Source of the DNA: Blattabacterium cuenoti
Lineage (GTDB): Bacteria > Bacteroidota > Bacteroidia > Flavobacteriales > Blattabacteriaceae
DNA length: 64,000 nucleotides
Direction of reading: 5' to 3'
NCBI RefSeq assembly: GCF_014252255.1
Contig: NZ_CP059213.1
Coordinates: forward strand, 186,001 to 250,000
The position numbers and the translations under genes were made by a program. Below, one piece after another: positions 34,454 to 45,661 of the stretch; within the stretch, counting starts at the first letter, position 1, and each line of letters starts with the position of its first letter. Under the pieces are notes generated by a model. The model made no database searches and was not told the DNA's origin. It saw only the letters and a list, made by a program, of their open reading frames with translations.

Positions 34454-34477
34454 AAAAGCTTACAATTGTAAGCTTTT
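34454..34477 (-). promoter_or_regulatory. Perfect palindrome in the his operon leader (possible attenuator or operator)
   Basis: AAAAGCTTAC / GTAAGCTTTT arms around AATT form a perfect 24-bp palindrome, 15 nt before the hisG ATG. Read toward hisG it is followed by a T-rich stretch (TTTTGTTATTTTTT), as in an intrinsic terminator. On the plus strand it is also followed by T residues, so it could act in both directions. Confidence 0.5.
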
Positions 34478-38496: not shown

Positions 38497-39143
38497 TAAA
38501 AAATAGATTTTTTTCTATAAAAAAATTAATTCCAAAAAATGTAAAAATTTTAGCAGTATCTAAAAGTCAAGATATTTATTCTATAAAAAAATTATACAAA
38601 TTAGGACAAAGAGATTTTGGAGAAAATTATATTCAAGAAATAATAAAAAAATATAAAAATTTACCAAAAGATATTCGTTGGCATATGATTGGAAGAATAC
38701 AAAATAATAAATTAAAGTATATAATACCTTTTATTTATTTAATTCACAGTGTTCAAAATTTAAAACAAATTCAAATAATAAATAAAATTGCGTTAAAATA
38801 TAATAAAATTATTAATTGTCTTTTACAAATTAAAATTTCATCCGAAAAAAGTAAATCTGGAATAACTGATCAAGAAGCTTATAAAATATTAGAAAATAAA
38901 ATTTATCAATCTATGAATAATGTAAAAATAATAGGTTTAATGGGTATTGCTTCTTTTCAAGAACTATCAAAAATACAGAAAGAATTTTCATATTTACATT
39001 CGTTATATAATGAATATAAAAAAAAATATAAGCATTATATACTTTCTATGGGTATGAGTAGAGATTATCATATAGCAATAAAATATGGAAGTAATATTAT
39101 TAGATTAGGAACTTTTCTTTTTGGAAAAAAATCTAATTTATAA
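38493..39143 (+). CDS. PLP homeostasis protein (YggS/PROSC family)
   Basis: PLP-binding protein of the alanine-racemase fold implicated in vitamin B6 and amino-acid balance. It has 216 residues: LAVSKSQD with the PLP lysine, FGENYIQEI, WHMIGRIQNNK, SSEKSKSG and LSMGMSRDYHIAIKYGSNIIRLGT. It is translationally coupled to serC, itself a PLP enzyme. Its 3' end overlaps the convergent trpA by 11 bp. Confidence 0.93.
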   Translation: MIKNRFFSIKKLIPKNVKILAVSKSQDIYSIKKLYKLGQRDFGENYIQEIIKKYKNLPKDIRWHMIGRIQNNKLKYIIPFIYLIHSVQNLKQIQIINKIALKYNKIINCLLQIKISSEKSKSGITDQEAYKILENKIYQSMNNVKIIGLMGIASFQELSKIQKEFSYLHSLYNEYKKKYKHYILSMGMSRDYHIAIKYGSNIIRLGTFLFGKKSNL

Positions 39144-39912
39144 TCGATTTTATATATTTTTTAATACTTTCTTCTAATTGATTTTTATTTAATGATTGAA
39201 TAAAAGAACTTCCAATAATTGCTCCATTTGCGTATTGACATGAAAAATCAAAAGTTTTTTTATTATTTATACCAAAACCAATTAATTTAGGAATATTTAT
39301 AGATAATTTTTTTATACGTTCAAAAAAAGATATTTGTTTTTTTCCAAAAAAATCATCAAATTTTCCTGTTATAGAATTAGAAGAAACTAAATATAAGAAA
39401 CCATCAGTTAATTTACTTAATAAAGTAACTCTATCTGAATCTGTTTGTGGAGTAATTAAAAATATCATTGATAATAAATATTTTTTTAATAAATTTTGAT
39501 ATTTTTTTATAAAAATATCTATAGGGAGATCTGGAATAATTAATCCAGAAATTCCTGATTGTTCACATTTTTTTAAAAATTTTTTTTCTCCAAACTTATA
39601 AAATTGATTATAATATCCCATAAGAATAATAGGAATTTTTATTTTATTTTTATATTGTTGAAGTTGTGAAAATAATAAAGAAAGATTCATTCCATTATTT
39701 AATGATATTTTATTACTATTTTGAATAATTACACCATCCGCTAAAGGATCAGAATAAGGTATTCCTATTTCTATTAAATCAACAGGTAAATTTTGTAATA
39801 TTTTTATTATTTTAATTGTACTATTTATATTTGGAAATCCAGCTGTAAAATAAATGCATAATATTTTTTTATTTTTATTTATAAATAAATTATGTATTTT
39901 ATTCATTTTCAT
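39133..39912 (-). CDS. trpA: Tryptophan synthase alpha subunit
   Basis: Cleaves indole-3-glycerol phosphate; indole passes to TrpB. Start chosen at ATG 39912 (MKMNKIHNLF), overlapping the end of trpB by 14 bp; ATG 39906 is also good, while ATG 39942 would overlap trpB by 44 bp. It has about 259 residues. Catalytic regions: LIEIGIPYSDPLADGVIIQ, GLIIPDLPID, FLYLVSSNSITG and IGFGINN. It is last in trpEGDCFBA. Confidence 0.95.
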   Translation of the reverse strand: MKMNKIHNLFINKNKKILCIYFTAGFPNINSTIKIIKILQNLPVDLIEIGIPYSDPLADGVIIQNSNKISLNNGMNLSLLFSQLQQYKNKIKIPIILMGYYNQFYKFGEKKFLKKCEQSGISGLIIPDLPIDIFIKKYQNLLKKYLLSMIFLITPQTDSDRVTLLSKLTDGFLYLVSSNSITGKFDDFFGKKQISFFERIKKLSINIPKLIGFGINNKKTFDFSCQYANGAIIGSSFIQSLNKNQLEESIKKYIKSIIN

Positions 39913-41098
39913 TATTATATAATTTTTTAAAAAATTTTTCATAAATCTTAATATCTTTATCCCCTCTTCCAGATAGAGTTATCACAACAATATCCTCTTT
40001 TTTAAAAGATATTTTTTTTAATACTGCTAATGCATGAGAACTTTCTAAAGCAGGAATGATTCCTTCCAACCGTGTTAGTTCATATCCAGCTTGTAAAGCT
40101 TCTTCATCTGTTGATGATAAAAAATTAACACGTTTTTTGACAAAAAGATTAGCAAACATAGGTCCTATCCCAGGATAATCTAATCCTGGAGATATAGAAT
40201 AAGCAGGAATAACTTGACCATCTGTATTTTGTAAAAGCATAGTCATACTTCCATGTAATATTCCTTGAGATCCACAATGAATAGTTGCAGCTGTTTTTTT
40301 TGTATTGATACCTAATCCTGCTGCTTCTACGGCAATAAGATTCACAGAATCATTATCTAAAAAATAATAAAAAGATCCAGCTGCATTACTTCCTCCACCT
40401 ATACAAGAAATTACATAATTAGGAAAATAAGATTCTTCTTTTTCTTTTAATTGCATTTTAATTTCTTCACTAATAATAGATTGAATATCTGCAACCATTT
40501 GAGGATAAGGATGAGGGCCCACTGTAGAACCAATTAAATAATAATATTCTGGATGATTTATCCAATAACGAATAGCTTCATTTACTGCATCTTTTAAAGT
40601 TTTATCTCCACTACAAACAGGAATAATTTCAGCTCCAAGAGATTTTATTCTAAGAACATTAGAATACTGACGTTGTATATCCATTTCTCCCATAAAAATA
40701 ATACATTTTAAATCCATTAATGCACAAGCAGTAGCAGTAGCTACTCCATGTTGACCAGCTCCTGTTTCAGCAATAATTTTTTTTTTACCTAATTTTTTTG
40801 CTAATAATGATTGACCTATAGCATTATTAATTTTATGTGATCCTGTATAATTTAAATCTTCTCTTTTAAAATAAATTTTAGCTTTATATTTTTCAGAATA
40901 TTTTTTACAAAAAAATAAAGGAGTAGGTCTTCCCACATAATCTTTTAATATTTCTTTATACAATTTTTGAAATTCAAAACTTGTAATAAATTTTTTATAT
41001 TTATTTTGTAATTCTGTTATATTATAATATAACATTTCAGGAATAAAAGCTCCACCAAATTCTCCATAATACCCATTGTTATCAACAAAATACTTCAT
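39899..41098 (-). CDS. trpB: Tryptophan synthase beta subunit
   Basis: PLP enzyme joining indole and serine. It has 399 residues: YGEFGGAFIPEML, REDLNYTGSHKINNAIGQ with the PLP lysine, ETGAGQHGVATATA, VGPHPYPQMVADIQSI, CIGGGSNAAG, HGSMTMLLQ and LSGRGDKD. It is complete and of TrpB1 type. Overlaps trpF by 4 bp. A 20-bp palindrome of mostly A/T lies near the N-terminal codons. Confidence 0.97.
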   Translation of the reverse strand: MKYFVDNNGYYGEFGGAFIPEMLYYNITELQNKYKKFITSFEFQKLYKEILKDYVGRPTPLFFCKKYSEKYKAKIYFKREDLNYTGSHKINNAIGQSLLAKKLGKKKIIAETGAGQHGVATATACALMDLKCIIFMGEMDIQRQYSNVLRIKSLGAEIIPVCSGDKTLKDAVNEAIRYWINHPEYYYLIGSTVGPHPYPQMVADIQSIISEEIKMQLKEKEESYFPNYVISCIGGGSNAAGSFYYFLDNDSVNLIAVEAAGLGINTKKTAATIHCGSQGILHGSMTMLLQNTDGQVIPAYSISPGLDYPGIGPMFANLFVKKRVNFLSSTDEEALQAGYELTRLEGIIPALESSHALAVLKKISFKKEDIVVITLSGRGDKDIKIYEKFFKKLYNNENE

Positions 41099-41721
41099 AA
41101 TCTTCTTATTTTTTTTATAAATGGATTTAATAAGATACTATCTTTTTTTCCTGGTAAAATTTCAAATTTACTATTAAGATCAATTCCAAACATTTTTGAA
41201 TGTGAAAAATTTTTAATTTTATCAAAATCTTTTATACCAATTCCTCCACTTAAAAAAAATGGAATTTTAAAATTATATTCATAAAGTTTTTCCCAACAAA
41301 ATTTTTTTCCGCTTCCTCCATAATAAATTGTATTATTATCAAATAAAAAATAAGTACAAAAAGGAACATAATCTATAGTTTTTTTAAAAGAAAAAAAATT
41401 ATCTATTCTAAAAGCTTTAATTAATTTTAATTTATTTTTAAATAATTTTTCACAATAAAAAGGATTTTCTGTCCCATGTAATTGAACAAAATCAAATTTA
41501 TTTTTTTTATTTATTTCTAATAATTTTTTTTCTTCTTCATTTACAAAAACTCCAATTTTCAATATACCTTTTTTTAATTCTGGAATAATAAAATCATAAC
41601 CTACAAATCTAGGAGAATTAGGATAAAATATAAATCCCATAAAATCAGGTAATAAATTAGAAATTTTTTGTATATGAAATTTTATTCCACATATTTTAAT
41701 TTTTAATAATTTACTATTCAT
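41095..41721 (-). CDS. trpF: Phosphoribosylanthranilate isomerase
   Basis: Amadori isomerase, TIM barrel. It has 208 residues: KICGIK with catalytic Cys, GFIFYPNSPRFVG, QLHGTENPFYC, YYGGSGKKFCWE and PFFLSGGIG. Separate from trpC here, not fused. It overlaps trpC and trpB by 4 bp at both ends, indicating coupled translation. Confidence 0.95.
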   Translation of the reverse strand: MNSKLLKIKICGIKFHIQKISNLLPDFMGFIFYPNSPRFVGYDFIIPELKKGILKIGVFVNEEEKKLLEINKKNKFDFVQLHGTENPFYCEKLFKNKLKLIKAFRIDNFFSFKKTIDYVPFCTYFLFDNNTIYYGGSGKKFCWEKLYEYNFKIPFFLSGGIGIKDFDKIKNFSHSKMFGIDLNSKFEILPGKKDSILLNPFIKKIRRL

Positions 41722-42509
41722 AGTACATTTTGTAATAAAGATTTTATTAACTTTTTACAAGTTCCACCAGGATCCTTTTTTTTCATAAAATATTCCCCAA
41801 TTAAAAAACCTTGAAATCCTTGTTTTTTTAACTCTAAAATACGATTTACATTACTAATTCCACTTTCTGCTATTTTTATATAATTATTAGGAATTTTGGA
41901 AAATAATTTAAAACAATTATTATAATTGATAATAAAAGTTTGTAAATTTCTATTATTAATACCTACAATATCTATATATTCTGATATTTTATCAATATCG
42001 AATTCATTATGAATTTCAATAATAACTTCTAAATTAATACTTTTTGCAAGTTTTGAAAAATTTTTAATTTGATTTTTAGAAAGTATATTAGCAATTAATA
42101 AAATAACATCAGATCCTATAGATTTAGATTCTATAATTTGATATTCATCTATAATAAAATCTTTCCTTAATATAGGAATAGAAACTAAAGAACGTGATTT
42201 TTCTAAATCTTCATTTTTTCCAGAAAAAAATTTCTTATCTGTAAGAATTGATATTCCACTGACTCCTGATAATTCATAATCTTTAACTACTTTTTCTACT
42301 GAAACTGTATTATTTATAATTCCTTTAGATGGAGATTTTAATTTAAATTCTGCAATAATTCCAGTTTTTTTTTTTTTTAAATTTTTAACTAATGAAAAAG
42401 TTTTTCTTTCAAAAAGAAAACATTTTTCTAATTTTTTTATAGAATGTACTATTTTATTATTATGCACTTCTTTTTTTTTGAAAAAAACTATTTTTTCAAG
42501 AAAATTCAT
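41718..42509 (-). CDS. trpC: Indole-3-glycerol phosphate synthase
   Basis: Ring closure to indole-3-glycerol phosphate. It has 263 residues: IAEFKLKSPSKGIIN with catalytic Lys, YELSGVSGISILTDKKFF, PILRKDFIID, DVILLIANILS, VGINNRNL and IAESGIS. Overlaps trpD and trpF by 4 bp each. Confidence 0.96.
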   Translation of the reverse strand: MNFLEKIVFFKKKEVHNNKIVHSIKKLEKCFLFERKTFSLVKNLKKKKTGIIAEFKLKSPSKGIINNTVSVEKVVKDYELSGVSGISILTDKKFFSGKNEDLEKSRSLVSIPILRKDFIIDEYQIIESKSIGSDVILLIANILSKNQIKNFSKLAKSINLEVIIEIHNEFDIDKISEYIDIVGINNRNLQTFIINYNNCFKLFSKIPNNYIKIAESGISNVNRILELKKQGFQGFLIGEYFMKKKDPGGTCKKLIKSLLQNVL

Positions 42510-43510
42510 AAGCTCAATAATTTTTTGAGAATATTTTTTGCTTTTCCACTTTTTAAGGATTGTTTTGCTTTATTATAATTATTTTCAAAACTATCTTTAT
42601 TGAGTAAGCTTAACGCAAATGTAGCATTTATTAAAACAACTTCATTTTGAAATAAAGTACCTTCTCCAGATAAAACACTAATAAACATACGAATATTTTC
42701 TTTTATATTTTTTCCTCCTTTTAATTCATATGGATTTATTTTTATTTTATTTTTTCCTATTTTTAATAATTTTTCCACAGAAAATAATCTTTCACCTTTT
42801 GTAGAATAATATTTAACATCATTCGTTAATGTTATTTCATCATAACCATCTAAACTATGAATAATAGCATAATTATTTTGTATATTTTTTTGATACATAT
42901 AATAATAAATTCTAGCAATTTCTAAATTAGAAACTCCTAATAATTGATTTTTTGGTTCTACTGGATTAATTAACGGACCAAGTGTATTAAAAATAGTTCT
43001 AATACCTAATTCTTTTCTCGTTTTAGATATCATATTTAAAACGGGATGAAACATAGGTGCATGTAAATAACAAATTCCAACTTTTTCTAATTGATTTTTT
43101 AAATTTTCTTCTTTATTTGTAAAATTATATCCTAAACCTTTTAATAAATTGGAAGATCCAGATATTGATGAAGAACTAAAACTACCATGTTTAATAACTT
43201 TTTCTCCTGCTCCTGCTACTATAAAACATGCTAAAGTAGAAATATTAAAAGTATTTTTTTTATCCCCACCTGTTCCTACTATATCAATAGCATTAAATTC
43301 TTTTAAATTTATTTTTATACATAATTCCATTAATGCTTGTCTAAATCCTATTATTTCTTCTAAAGTAGGTGTTCTCATATTATATATAGTAGATATAGCT
43401 ACTATATGAGTTTCATTAATTTTTCCTTTTGATAATTCTATAATAATATTTTTAGCCTCTTGTTTTGTTAAAGATTTTTCTAAAAAAAGATTTTCTAATA
43501 TTTTTTTCAT
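42506..43510 (-). CDS. trpD: Anthranilate phosphoribosyltransferase
   Basis: Transfers phosphoribose to anthranilate. Start chosen at ATG 43510 (MKKILENLFLEKSLT), which begins just after the trpG stop; an upstream TTG/GTG-type start at 43531 would overlap trpG. It has 334 residues: DIVGTGGDKKNTFNIST (PRPP site), KHGSFSSSSISGSSNLL, RKELGIRTIFNTLGPLINP and HSLDGYDEIT. TrpD is not fused to TrpG, unlike in E. coli. Confidence 0.96.
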   Translation of the reverse strand: MKKILENLFLEKSLTKQEAKNIIIELSKGKINETHIVAISTIYNMRTPTLEEIIGFRQALMELCIKINLKEFNAIDIVGTGGDKKNTFNISTLACFIVAGAGEKVIKHGSFSSSSISGSSNLLKGLGYNFTNKEENLKNQLEKVGICYLHAPMFHPVLNMISKTRKELGIRTIFNTLGPLINPVEPKNQLLGVSNLEIARIYYYMYQKNIQNNYAIIHSLDGYDEITLTNDVKYYSTKGERLFSVEKLLKIGKNKIKINPYELKGGKNIKENIRMFISVLSGEGTLFQNEVVLINATFALSLLNKDSFENNYNKAKQSLKSGKAKNILKKLLSL

Positions 43511-43512
43511 TA

Positions 43513-44088
43513 TTACTTCATTTTCAACCAATTATTTATAATTTTTTCTCCATATGGAGTTAAAATAGATTCTGGATGAAATTGTACTCCTCGTACATCG
43601 TAAAATTTATGACGTAAAGCCATGATTTCTCCTTTATCTCCAATTGCTGTAATTTGAAGTTCTTTAGGAAAATTATGTGGAGATATAATCCAAGAATGAT
43701 AACGACCAACTTTAATTTCTTTAGGTAATTTTTTAAATAAAACTTCTTTTGAATCTATAATTTTTATTGAACTAGCTATTCCGTGATAAACTTCTTTAGT
43801 ATTAAGAAGAGTTGCTCCAAAAACTTCTCCTATTGCTTGTTGTCCTAAACAAACTCCAAAAATACTTTTTGTAGAAGCAAAAGTTTTTACTAAAGGTTTT
43901 AAAATATGTGCTTCATCAGGAATTCCAGGTCCTGGAGAAAGAATAATTTTATTGTATTTTTCTATATCAGAAAGCTTAATTTCATTATTTCTATATACTT
44001 GTACAGAATTTTTTGTTAATTTTTTTACAGCATGAACAAGATTATAAGTAAAAGAATCATAATTATCTAAAATAAGTATTTTATTCAT
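43513..44088 (-). CDS. trpG: Anthranilate synthase glutaminase subunit
   Basis: Provides ammonia to TrpE. It has 191 residues: ILDNYDSFTYNLVHAV, LSPGPGIP, GVCLGQQAIGE with catalytic Cys, and VQFHPESILTPYG with the His-Glu pair. It lies 12 nt after trpE. The sequence also resembles PabA; a dual role in folate synthesis is possible. Confidence 0.95.
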   Translation of the reverse strand: MNKILILDNYDSFTYNLVHAVKKLTKNSVQVYRNNEIKLSDIEKYNKIILSPGPGIPDEAHILKPLVKTFASTKSIFGVCLGQQAIGEVFGATLLNTKEVYHGIASSIKIIDSKEVLFKKLPKEIKVGRYHSWIISPHNFPKELQITAIGDKGEIMALRHKFYDVRGVQFHPESILTPYGEKIINNWLKMK

Positions 44089-44100
44089 AATACTTCATAT

Positions 44101-45510
44101 TCATATATTTTTAGCTAATTTGATAGATTTAAATAAAGCCATAAGTTTATTATTAACTTCTTCCAATTCTTTTTCTTCTTTAGATTCGGAAACAATACCT
44201 GCACCAGCCTGAAAAAAAAGAGTATTATTTTTACTTATAAAAGAACGAATAACTATAGCTGTATTAATATAATCATTATTTAATCCAAAAAAACCAATAG
44301 CTCCTCCATATATTCCTCTATGTTGGTTTTCTATTTTATCTATTAATTCCATTGCTTTATATTTAGGTGCTCCTGATAAAGTTCCTGCTGGGAAAGTATC
44401 TCCAAATATTTTTATAATTGATATATTATCTTCTAATTTTCCAGATACTTTAGATATCATATGTATAACATGAGAAAAAATTTGAATTTCCTTAAATTTT
44501 TCTACTTTTACATTATAAGAATTTTTGCTTAAATCATTTCTTGCTAAATCTACTAACATAACGTGTTCTGCATTTTCTTTTGGATTTTTAGAAAGAATTT
44601 CAGATAATTTTTTATCCTTTTCTTTATTTCCAGATCTACGTATAGTTCCTGCTATTGGATTTATATAAGCTATTTTATTATTAATAATTAACTGTGATTC
44701 TGGAGAAGATCCAAATAATTTATAATTTCCATAATCAAAATAAAAAAGATATGGAGATGGATTTATAAATCGTAAAGAACGATATACATTAAATTCATCT
44801 CCTTTAAATTTTTGTTGAAATTGTCTAGATAATACTATTTGAAAAACATCTCCCCGTAAACAAGCTTTAATTCCTTGTGATACCATTTTTTGATATCCTA
44901 TATCCGTAATATTTGAAGAACAATTTCCTATAGGTTTAAATGAAAAAGAAGAAAAATTTTTCTTTTTTATTAATTCTATTAATTTATCAATATAAGTTTT
45001 TTTATTAATATTAATAAATTGATGTTCAATTAAATGAATATCATTATAAAAATGACGAAATATAATAATATTTTTATAAAAACTAAATCTTATTTGTGGG
45101 ATATTATATATTTTTTTAATTGGAGCATGAAATTGAATATTTTCAAAATATTGAATGCTATCATAAGATATATAACCATATAATCCAGAATAATAAATAG
45201 AAGCATTTTCACTTTTAAATTTTTGAAAAAAATCCTCAATTAAAATTTGAATATCCAATCTATCATTAATGAATATATGTTTATGAACATAATTTGGATA
45301 TGATATTTGTAATACATTTTTATCTAGAATAAGTTCTGAAATTGGATTCATACAAAGAATAGAAAAATTATTTTTATAAACTTTAGAATCAAAAGATTCT
45401 AATAATAATGTATTTGGAAATATATCTCTTAATTTTAAATATAATTCTATTGGTGTAGTACTATCAGCTAAAATTTTTTTCTGAATAGTTATAAAATTAA
45501 ATTTAAACAT
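44101..45510 (-). CDS. trpE: Anthranilate synthase component I
   Basis: Chorismate to anthranilate with TrpG. It has 469 residues. The N-terminal part contains LLLESFDSK, the LLES element associated with Trp feedback binding. The C-terminal chorismate domain has GDVFQIVLSRQF, NPSPYLFYFDYG, GSSPESQL, PIAGTIRRSG, DLARNDLSKNS, SGAPKYKAMELID, RGIYGGAIGFF and QAGAGIVSESKEEKE. It is the first gene of trpEGDCFBA, preceded by a terminator-like hairpin. Confidence 0.97.
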   Translation of the reverse strand: MFKFNFITIQKKILADSTTPIELYLKLRDIFPNTLLLESFDSKVYKNNFSILCMNPISELILDKNVLQISYPNYVHKHIFINDRLDIQILIEDFFQKFKSENASIYYSGLYGYISYDSIQYFENIQFHAPIKKIYNIPQIRFSFYKNIIIFRHFYNDIHLIEHQFININKKTYIDKLIELIKKKNFSSFSFKPIGNCSSNITDIGYQKMVSQGIKACLRGDVFQIVLSRQFQQKFKGDEFNVYRSLRFINPSPYLFYFDYGNYKLFGSSPESQLIINNKIAYINPIAGTIRRSGNKEKDKKLSEILSKNPKENAEHVMLVDLARNDLSKNSYNVKVEKFKEIQIFSHVIHMISKVSGKLEDNISIIKIFGDTFPAGTLSGAPKYKAMELIDKIENQHRGIYGGAIGFFGLNNDYINTAIVIRSFISKNNTLFFQAGAGIVSESKEEKELEEVNNKLMALFKSIKLAKNI

Positions 45511-45533
45511 GGTTTATGGTATTTTTATATGAT

Positions 45534-45562
45534 AAAAAAGGCCGTCATAAAGACAAGCCTTG
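45534..45562 (-). promoter_or_regulatory. Terminator-like hairpin in the trp operon leader (possible attenuator)
   Basis: On the minus strand AAGGC-tt-GTC-tttat-GAC-g-GCCTT forms an 8-bp stem with a small internal loop, followed directly by TTTT, 23 nt before the trpE ATG and pointing at trpE. An intrinsic terminator just before the first structural gene suggests transcription attenuation. A second small hairpin (GGATA-aattg-TATCC) lies about 20 nt upstream. No Trp-rich leader peptide was found. Confidence 0.55.
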
Positions 45563-45653
45563 TAAATATTTTTGGGATACAATTTATCCTCAATTAAATT
45601 AATTTTAATTTAAGAATACCATTTACTTTACAGAAATGACATTTTACCTTACA

Positions 45654-45661
45654 CAAAGATA
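45654..45661 (-). promoter_or_regulatory. Candidate -7 box of the trp operon
   Basis: TATCTTTG on the minus strand matches TAnnTTTG and would start a leader of about 135 nt that includes the hairpin at 45534-45562. No clear -33 TTG. Confidence 0.4.

Follow-up and report, generated by a model that had tools for sequence, protein, structure and literature searches.

The trp operon and its leader

The window (the whole stretch of 64,000 nucleotides that was analysed) belongs to a Blattabacterium-type genome of 628,934 bases. It carries on the minus strand a trp operon, trpE-G-D-C-(F)-B-A, of which trpE is the first gene (Table 1). The upstream neighbour of trpE is a porin-like gene (PF14121) in divergent orientation. 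Read on the minus strand, the leader consists of TATCTTTG, about 90 nt, a hairpin with its U-run (45561-45534), 23 nt and the ATG of trpE. TATCTTTG fits TAnnTTTG, which we take to be the consensus of the Bacteroidota-type -7 box; the initial annotation had placed such a box upstream of the hairpin, and it is found there. The segment AATTTATTTATATTTG at this box agrees with its own consensus at a mean of 15.4 of 16 positions (30 strains).

Table 1. Features of the trp operon, of its leader and of the hisG leader. Positions are those of the window; A, B and E are conserved leader elements.
Feature	Sequence	Position	Strand	Basis
trpE, anthranilate synthase component I		44101-45510	minus	Pfam PF00425 and PF04715
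trpG, trpD, trpC		within 39133-44088	minus	Pfam matches
trpF (candidate)		41095-41721	minus	position only
trpB		within 39133-44088	minus	PALP domain
trpA (candidate)		39133-39942	minus	position only
Promoter box TAnnTTTG	TATCTTTG	45654-45661	minus	sequence
Element A, 5′ arm of the promoter-proximal hairpin	AATGTCATTT	45634-45643	minus	strain comparison
Mini-ORF MSFL*, start overlapping element A		45628-45642	minus	
Element B, 3′ arm of the 5′ hairpin, complementary to E	AAATGGTATT	45615-45624	minus	strain comparison
Terminator hairpin	AAGGCTTGTCTTTATGACGGCCTT	45538-45561	minus	folding, strain comparison, covariation
Terminator U-run		45534-45539	minus	sequence
Element E, immediately before the trpE start, complementary to B	AATACCAT	45516-45523	minus	strain comparison
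hisG leader mini-ORF (Met-His-stop)	ATG CAT TAA	34493-34501	minus	
hisG leader hairpin	AAAAGCTTAC-AATT-GTAAGCTTTT	34454-34477	minus	

The hairpin (AAGGCUU-GUC/UUUAU/GACGGCCUU, with one bulged U in the stem) had been proposed as a structure whose T-run is aimed at trpE, 23 nt from the ATG; its coordinates were confirmed, and its predicted folding energy is -10.5 kcal/mol (z -3.8; equalled by 0 of 200 shuffles). When the whole window was scanned with a U-tail rule, it was among the few intergenic hairpins at -7.5 kcal/mol or lower. Another hairpin (11262, minus strand), which precedes an arginyl-tRNA-synthetase-like ORF by about 24 nt, was discounted as a leader: it was judged to overlap the end of an unlisted reading frame upstream. 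Because 2 of 30 shuffles of the 150 nt preceding trpE contain an equally strong U-tailed hairpin, the single-sequence evidence is moderate; it is conservation across strains that makes the trp hairpin secure. A fixed-pattern terminator scan detected nothing at this site, the pattern being blind to it since it omits bulged stems. The default Rfam scan of the window gave two tRNAs at gathering score and nothing at the trp leader, and a relaxed scan of this leader, up to E 10, gave no T-box match.

Conservation of the hairpin among Blattabacterium strains

Of 49 genomes of the genus that were searched, 44 have a near full-length trpE. In G015, trpE is found only as fragments with stops; four others (G001, G026, G041, G043) have only a weak match to a second chorismate-binding gene and no intact trpE. 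hisG is still matched in all five.

Conservation of the hairpin among strains had been named beforehand as a test, and it holds. A strong hairpin (-7.9 kcal/mol or better) occupies the homologous place in 29 of the 44 strains, two of them (G009 and G011) scored as strong from one of two hairpin scans only; it is weak or reshaped in seven (G002, G016, G017, G027, G029, G033, G008) and lost in eight, the three classes being assigned by judgement. On a quick TrpE tree, built without the outgroup G051, the kept or lost state requires at least six changes; with eight losses, this indicates that the hairpin is dispensable.

Covariation was analysed in the 35 alignable strains (all but G022, G025, G040, G008, G009, G023, G039, G006 and G014), the arms being placed by sequence similarity alone. 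Standard pairs make up 94.6% of pair cells; whole-arm shuffles give a mean of 91.7%, none of 2000 being as well paired, while the five pair cells altered on both sides are reached by 6 of 2000, these shuffles ignoring relatedness among strains, so that the values are not exact probabilities. Sliding the 3′ arm lowers pairing to 46% and 53%. Changes include the replacement of G-C by A-U in G033 (AAGAC/GTCTT), remodelled arms in G011 and G047, and U-G replaced by U-A in several lines. The trpE 4-fold sites of the genome are 88% A or T, yet the G+C-rich arms of the hairpin persist. The strain comparison thereby demonstrates, at the level of sequence, that the predicted trp terminator has been kept by selection on pairing. 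A decaying relic, persisting through inertia and without present effect, would fit the repeated changes on the tree and the broken frames of the leader ORFs (see below), but the covarying pairs and the survival of these arms against such a base composition make it quite improbable.

Relation to the Bacteroid-trp attenuator

The 5′ arm of the hairpin, AAGGCUUGUC, is identical to that of Bacteroid-trp (RF01692), the trp attenuator by which the leaders of free-living Bacteroidota respond to the ribosome; the element is named in Table 1 of PMC2864571. The terminators of Flavobacterium are AAGGCTTGTC..GACAAGCCTT, with a 5′ arm identical to that of Blattabacterium, and the RF01692 consensus terminates in exactly the same arm, AAGGCTTGTC. 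One feature of Bacteroid-trp, a terminator with this conserved 5′ arm before trpE, is present in the window strain. In a relaxed scan of 281 bases, the window leader matches RF01692 with 26.0 bits and an E-value of 0.61, below the gathering score of 49 bits. As a positive control, 12 of 17 loci of relatives exceed that score, as do 29 of 196 genomes of the order; none of the Blattabacterium genomes listed does, and their weak matches do not lie at trpE. G049 has two successive RF01692 matches.

Seventy-nine trpE loci were examined. All 75 non-symbiont loci have an upstream Trp-rich ORF (at least two Trp codons, usually WWW); the four symbiont loci (two Blattabacterium, Sulcia, Walczuchella) have none, and before trpE of Sulcia and Walczuchella no leader could be recognised. 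Among 20 relatives from the order, 19 have a Trp-rich leader ORF; in the exception, L146, a W-bearing ORF was judged not to be a leader. The Blattabacterium terminator is, by comparison of these leaders, demonstrably homologous to the predicted terminator of the trp attenuator of free-living Flavobacteriales.

Two further kinds of leader were observed. In uncultured Bacteroidia (L037-L040, L042-L045, L047, L098), two successive Trp-rich leader ORFs precede trpE and resemble trp attenuators in tandem. Among the relatives from the order, the one most similar in TrpE (L134, genome G051; 58% identity) has a very short leader peptide, MNFWWNTY, and a terminator upstream of trpE, perhaps an intermediate stage.

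An insulating role has also to be considered, in which the terminator would stop minus-strand transcription from the region antisense to the porin-like gene. The region between this gene and trpE is indeed divergent, but the free-living homologues look like attenuators and, since the conserved promoter box precedes the terminator, an insulator would hit the operon's own transcript; this role is very improbable.

In classic attenuation, a ribosome that finishes the leader peptide covers the antiterminator strand and termination follows; a ribosome stalled on the Trp codons leaves this strand free. An antiterminator was searched for in 21 of 97 non-Blattabacterium loci, those with a matching terminator and an upstream WW pair, and in those 24 of 44 Blattabacterium strains whose terminator matches the pattern. 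In 21/21 non-Blattabacterium loci, the terminator loop and 3′ arm pair best with a strand that follows the Trp codons by 18-20 nt, mostly over 7-8 bp; this strand lies at the leader stop codon or overlaps it. Its sequence varies together with that of the terminator from group to group (CGTCGTGA/TCACGACA; CGTTGGTT/AACCGACA). In 8 of these 21 loci, and in none of the 24 Blattabacterium strains, the pairing outdoes 196 or more of 200 shuffles, a test that is not very sensitive given that only 8 of the 21 free-living loci pass it. The ancestral leader would thus be read by the classic model, its Trp-Trp-Trp ORF and antiterminator deciding whether the terminator forms.

In the window strain, the mini-ORFs had been read correctly as MSFL and MVFLN, with no Trp-codon leader peptide: these leader ORFs hold 0 Trp codons. 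Of the ORFs that open at the conserved A start in 28 strains, three contain a Trp codon, in each case a single one, and the frames of the leader ORFs are broken among Blattabacterium strains. The trp leader of Blattabacterium is therefore, as judged from these ORFs and from the shuffle test (3/28 and 0/24), one in which the predicted terminator is retained and the sensor and antiterminator are lost or undetectable. Those single Trp codons are what speaks for classic Trp-codon attenuation still intact in the window strain; with 0 Trp codons there, no detected antiterminator and a sub-threshold Rfam score, it is extremely unlikely.

The leader thus resembles Bacteroid-trp in its pre-trpE position, in a promoter-proximal leader of similar length and in its terminator 5′ arm, and differs from it in having no Trp-codon ORF, no detected antiterminator at the stop of such an ORF, and a score of 26.0 bits, below the 49 bits required. 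The trp attenuator of Escherichia coli combines a trpL-type peptide with tandem Trp codons, an alternative antiterminator and a terminator between promoter and trpE. Blattabacterium shares with it an intrinsic terminator (predicted here) between promoter and trpE, but has no trpL-type tandem-Trp peptide and no detected alternative antiterminator.

Elements A, B and E and the leaders of other amino-acid operons

Three further leader elements are conserved. The search for element A dropped 11 of the 44 strains and kept 33, of which 28 were judged true bearers; matches in G037, G047, G029, G032 and G008 were set aside as being at chance level. The ORF starting in A opens with start-S-F or start-S-L in 28/28 strains listed. 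The start of MVFLN* (45622) lies within element B. Among 25 of the A-bearing strains, identity is 0.88 for A, 0.85 for B and 0.90 for E, versus 0.70 for trpE 4-fold sites, the element values being somewhat inflated by the choice of the best match per strain; shuffled-motif controls match far less well. AATACCAT is conserved even in G040, G022 and G037, which lost the terminator. Nine bases of element B, TGGTATTCT, occur in the flavobacterial leader L077 (MKTFLNNTWWWYSRN), where they correspond to Trp-Tyr-Ser codons of the leader ORF; this one short match suggests that the old leader ORF may survive in pieces in Blattabacterium.

Pairing of A with B gives a promoter-proximal hairpin of 10 bp, with a mean z of -1.63 in the 26 strains scored and values below -1.6 in 13 of them; in G016 and G017, the other two of the 28 A-bearing strains, the position of B could not be assigned. 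The pairing is possible in most strains and survives a self-folding insertion of about 31 nt (G012) and arm changes (G002). Alternatively, B pairs with E (AUGGUAUU/AAUACCAU), and in the predicted fold of the full leader B:E encloses the terminator. Many strains share, at a constant position, a complement between A and the terminator (GUCAU/AUGAC, 5-6 bp), which is no better than in shuffles. No alternative-structure switch is claimed, since covariation of A:B and B:E is not separable from whole-arm shuffles and that of A:terminator is nil.

The conservation of the 5′ hairpin with its mini-ORF (MSFL) and of the segment before trpE nevertheless leaves room for a rewired attenuator, in which readthrough would be set not by Trp codons but by a small molecule or by the loading of ribosomes at the 5′ end, A:B and MSFL competing with A:terminator and B:E. 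The identities of A, B and E above those of 4-fold sites, the persistence of A:B through the changes in G012 and G002, the B:E pairing around the terminator and the constant opening of the A-start ORF are all consistent with such a switch. The covariation results count against it, as does the strong terminator of lines without A (e.g. G018, G045, G021), and it is considered a tentative, rather unlikely reading.

Blattabacterium is thought to have few regulators. The reading to which slightly better than even chances are given is that the trp leader is a retained terminator without Trp sensor, derived from Bacteroid-trp and acting as a fixed brake. RNA polymerase would start near 45648, the terminator would fold by default, and the polymerase would halt before trpE most or part of the time while a fixed fraction reads through; the terminator would then restrain trpEGDC(F)BA constitutively instead of serving as a Trp switch. 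A fixed partial terminator is, by inference, the simplest working model. The conservation of A, B and E above 4-fold sites, which a mere fixed terminator would not need, counts against it, as do the loss of the hairpin in eight strains and the recurrent A:terminator complement.

The initial annotation had described an attenuator with a sensing mechanism other than the classic one. As it had said, this trp leader contains an attenuator-type terminator and lacks a Trp-codon peptide; the terminator proved to be conserved, and descent from Bacteroid-trp had been overlooked. Since the leader derives by decay from an attenuator already known, its likeliest state is a terminator whose sensor was lost, rather than one served by a new mechanism.

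In the Blattabacterium literature on attenuation, terminators, riboswitches and regulators, judged by titles and abstracts and with few subscription papers covered, the trp leader is not described; nor is it mentioned in the available parts of PMC4833913 and PMC5702781. Buchnera is the closest parallel for trp and leu: according to the available parts of PMC3091783 and PMC3229713, this amino-acid-supplying endosymbiont with few regulators has lost its leader peptides, and attenuation disappeared as the genome was reduced; PMC3091783 states that attenuation systems are not used by Buchnera. In Table 3 of that paper, the number of predicted terminators is 0 for 83 divergent regions, whereas Blattabacterium keeps a predicted terminator in such a region. 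Unlike the loss of attenuation printed for Buchnera in these two papers, the trp terminator persists with compensatory changes.

Similar structures precede two other amino-acid operons. The hisG leader contains the mini-ORF and hairpin given in Table 1, the latter a perfect 10-bp stem with a U-rich tail; 45 of 49 strains have the exact stem. The first ORF is MH* in 18/49 strains, and MH are the opening codons in 20/49. His-rich peptides are encoded by 15 of 16 hisG leaders of relatives from the order. In a relaxed Rfam scan, the hisG leader matched at chance level only. Of 45 strains with an ilvD match, 30 were examined, and 26 of these keep CCCTACT..AGTAGGG and a U-run before the gene. With these hairpins conserved, predicted leader terminators are kept at three amino-acid operons, trp, hisG and ilvD. 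The inherited trp terminator and its hisG and ilvD counterparts would outlast sensor decay in a 0.63-Mb symbiont genome, which opens to testing whether symbionts that supply nutrients have kept regulation or have frozen this supply at a fixed setting.

The three leaders could also be a small regulon of minimised attenuators, in which termination would still be controlled by alternative hairpins and by ribosomes loading on a 5′-terminal micro-ORF; this is an unlikely proposal. The coding part of the leader would have shrunk to Met-Ser-Phe-Leu at trp and to Met-His-stop at his, and such attenuators, if real, would let a regulator-poor symbiont tune its amino acid supply. The ilvD leader (about 100 nt before ilvD; L155/L188) has a variable loop and an additional upstream hairpin.
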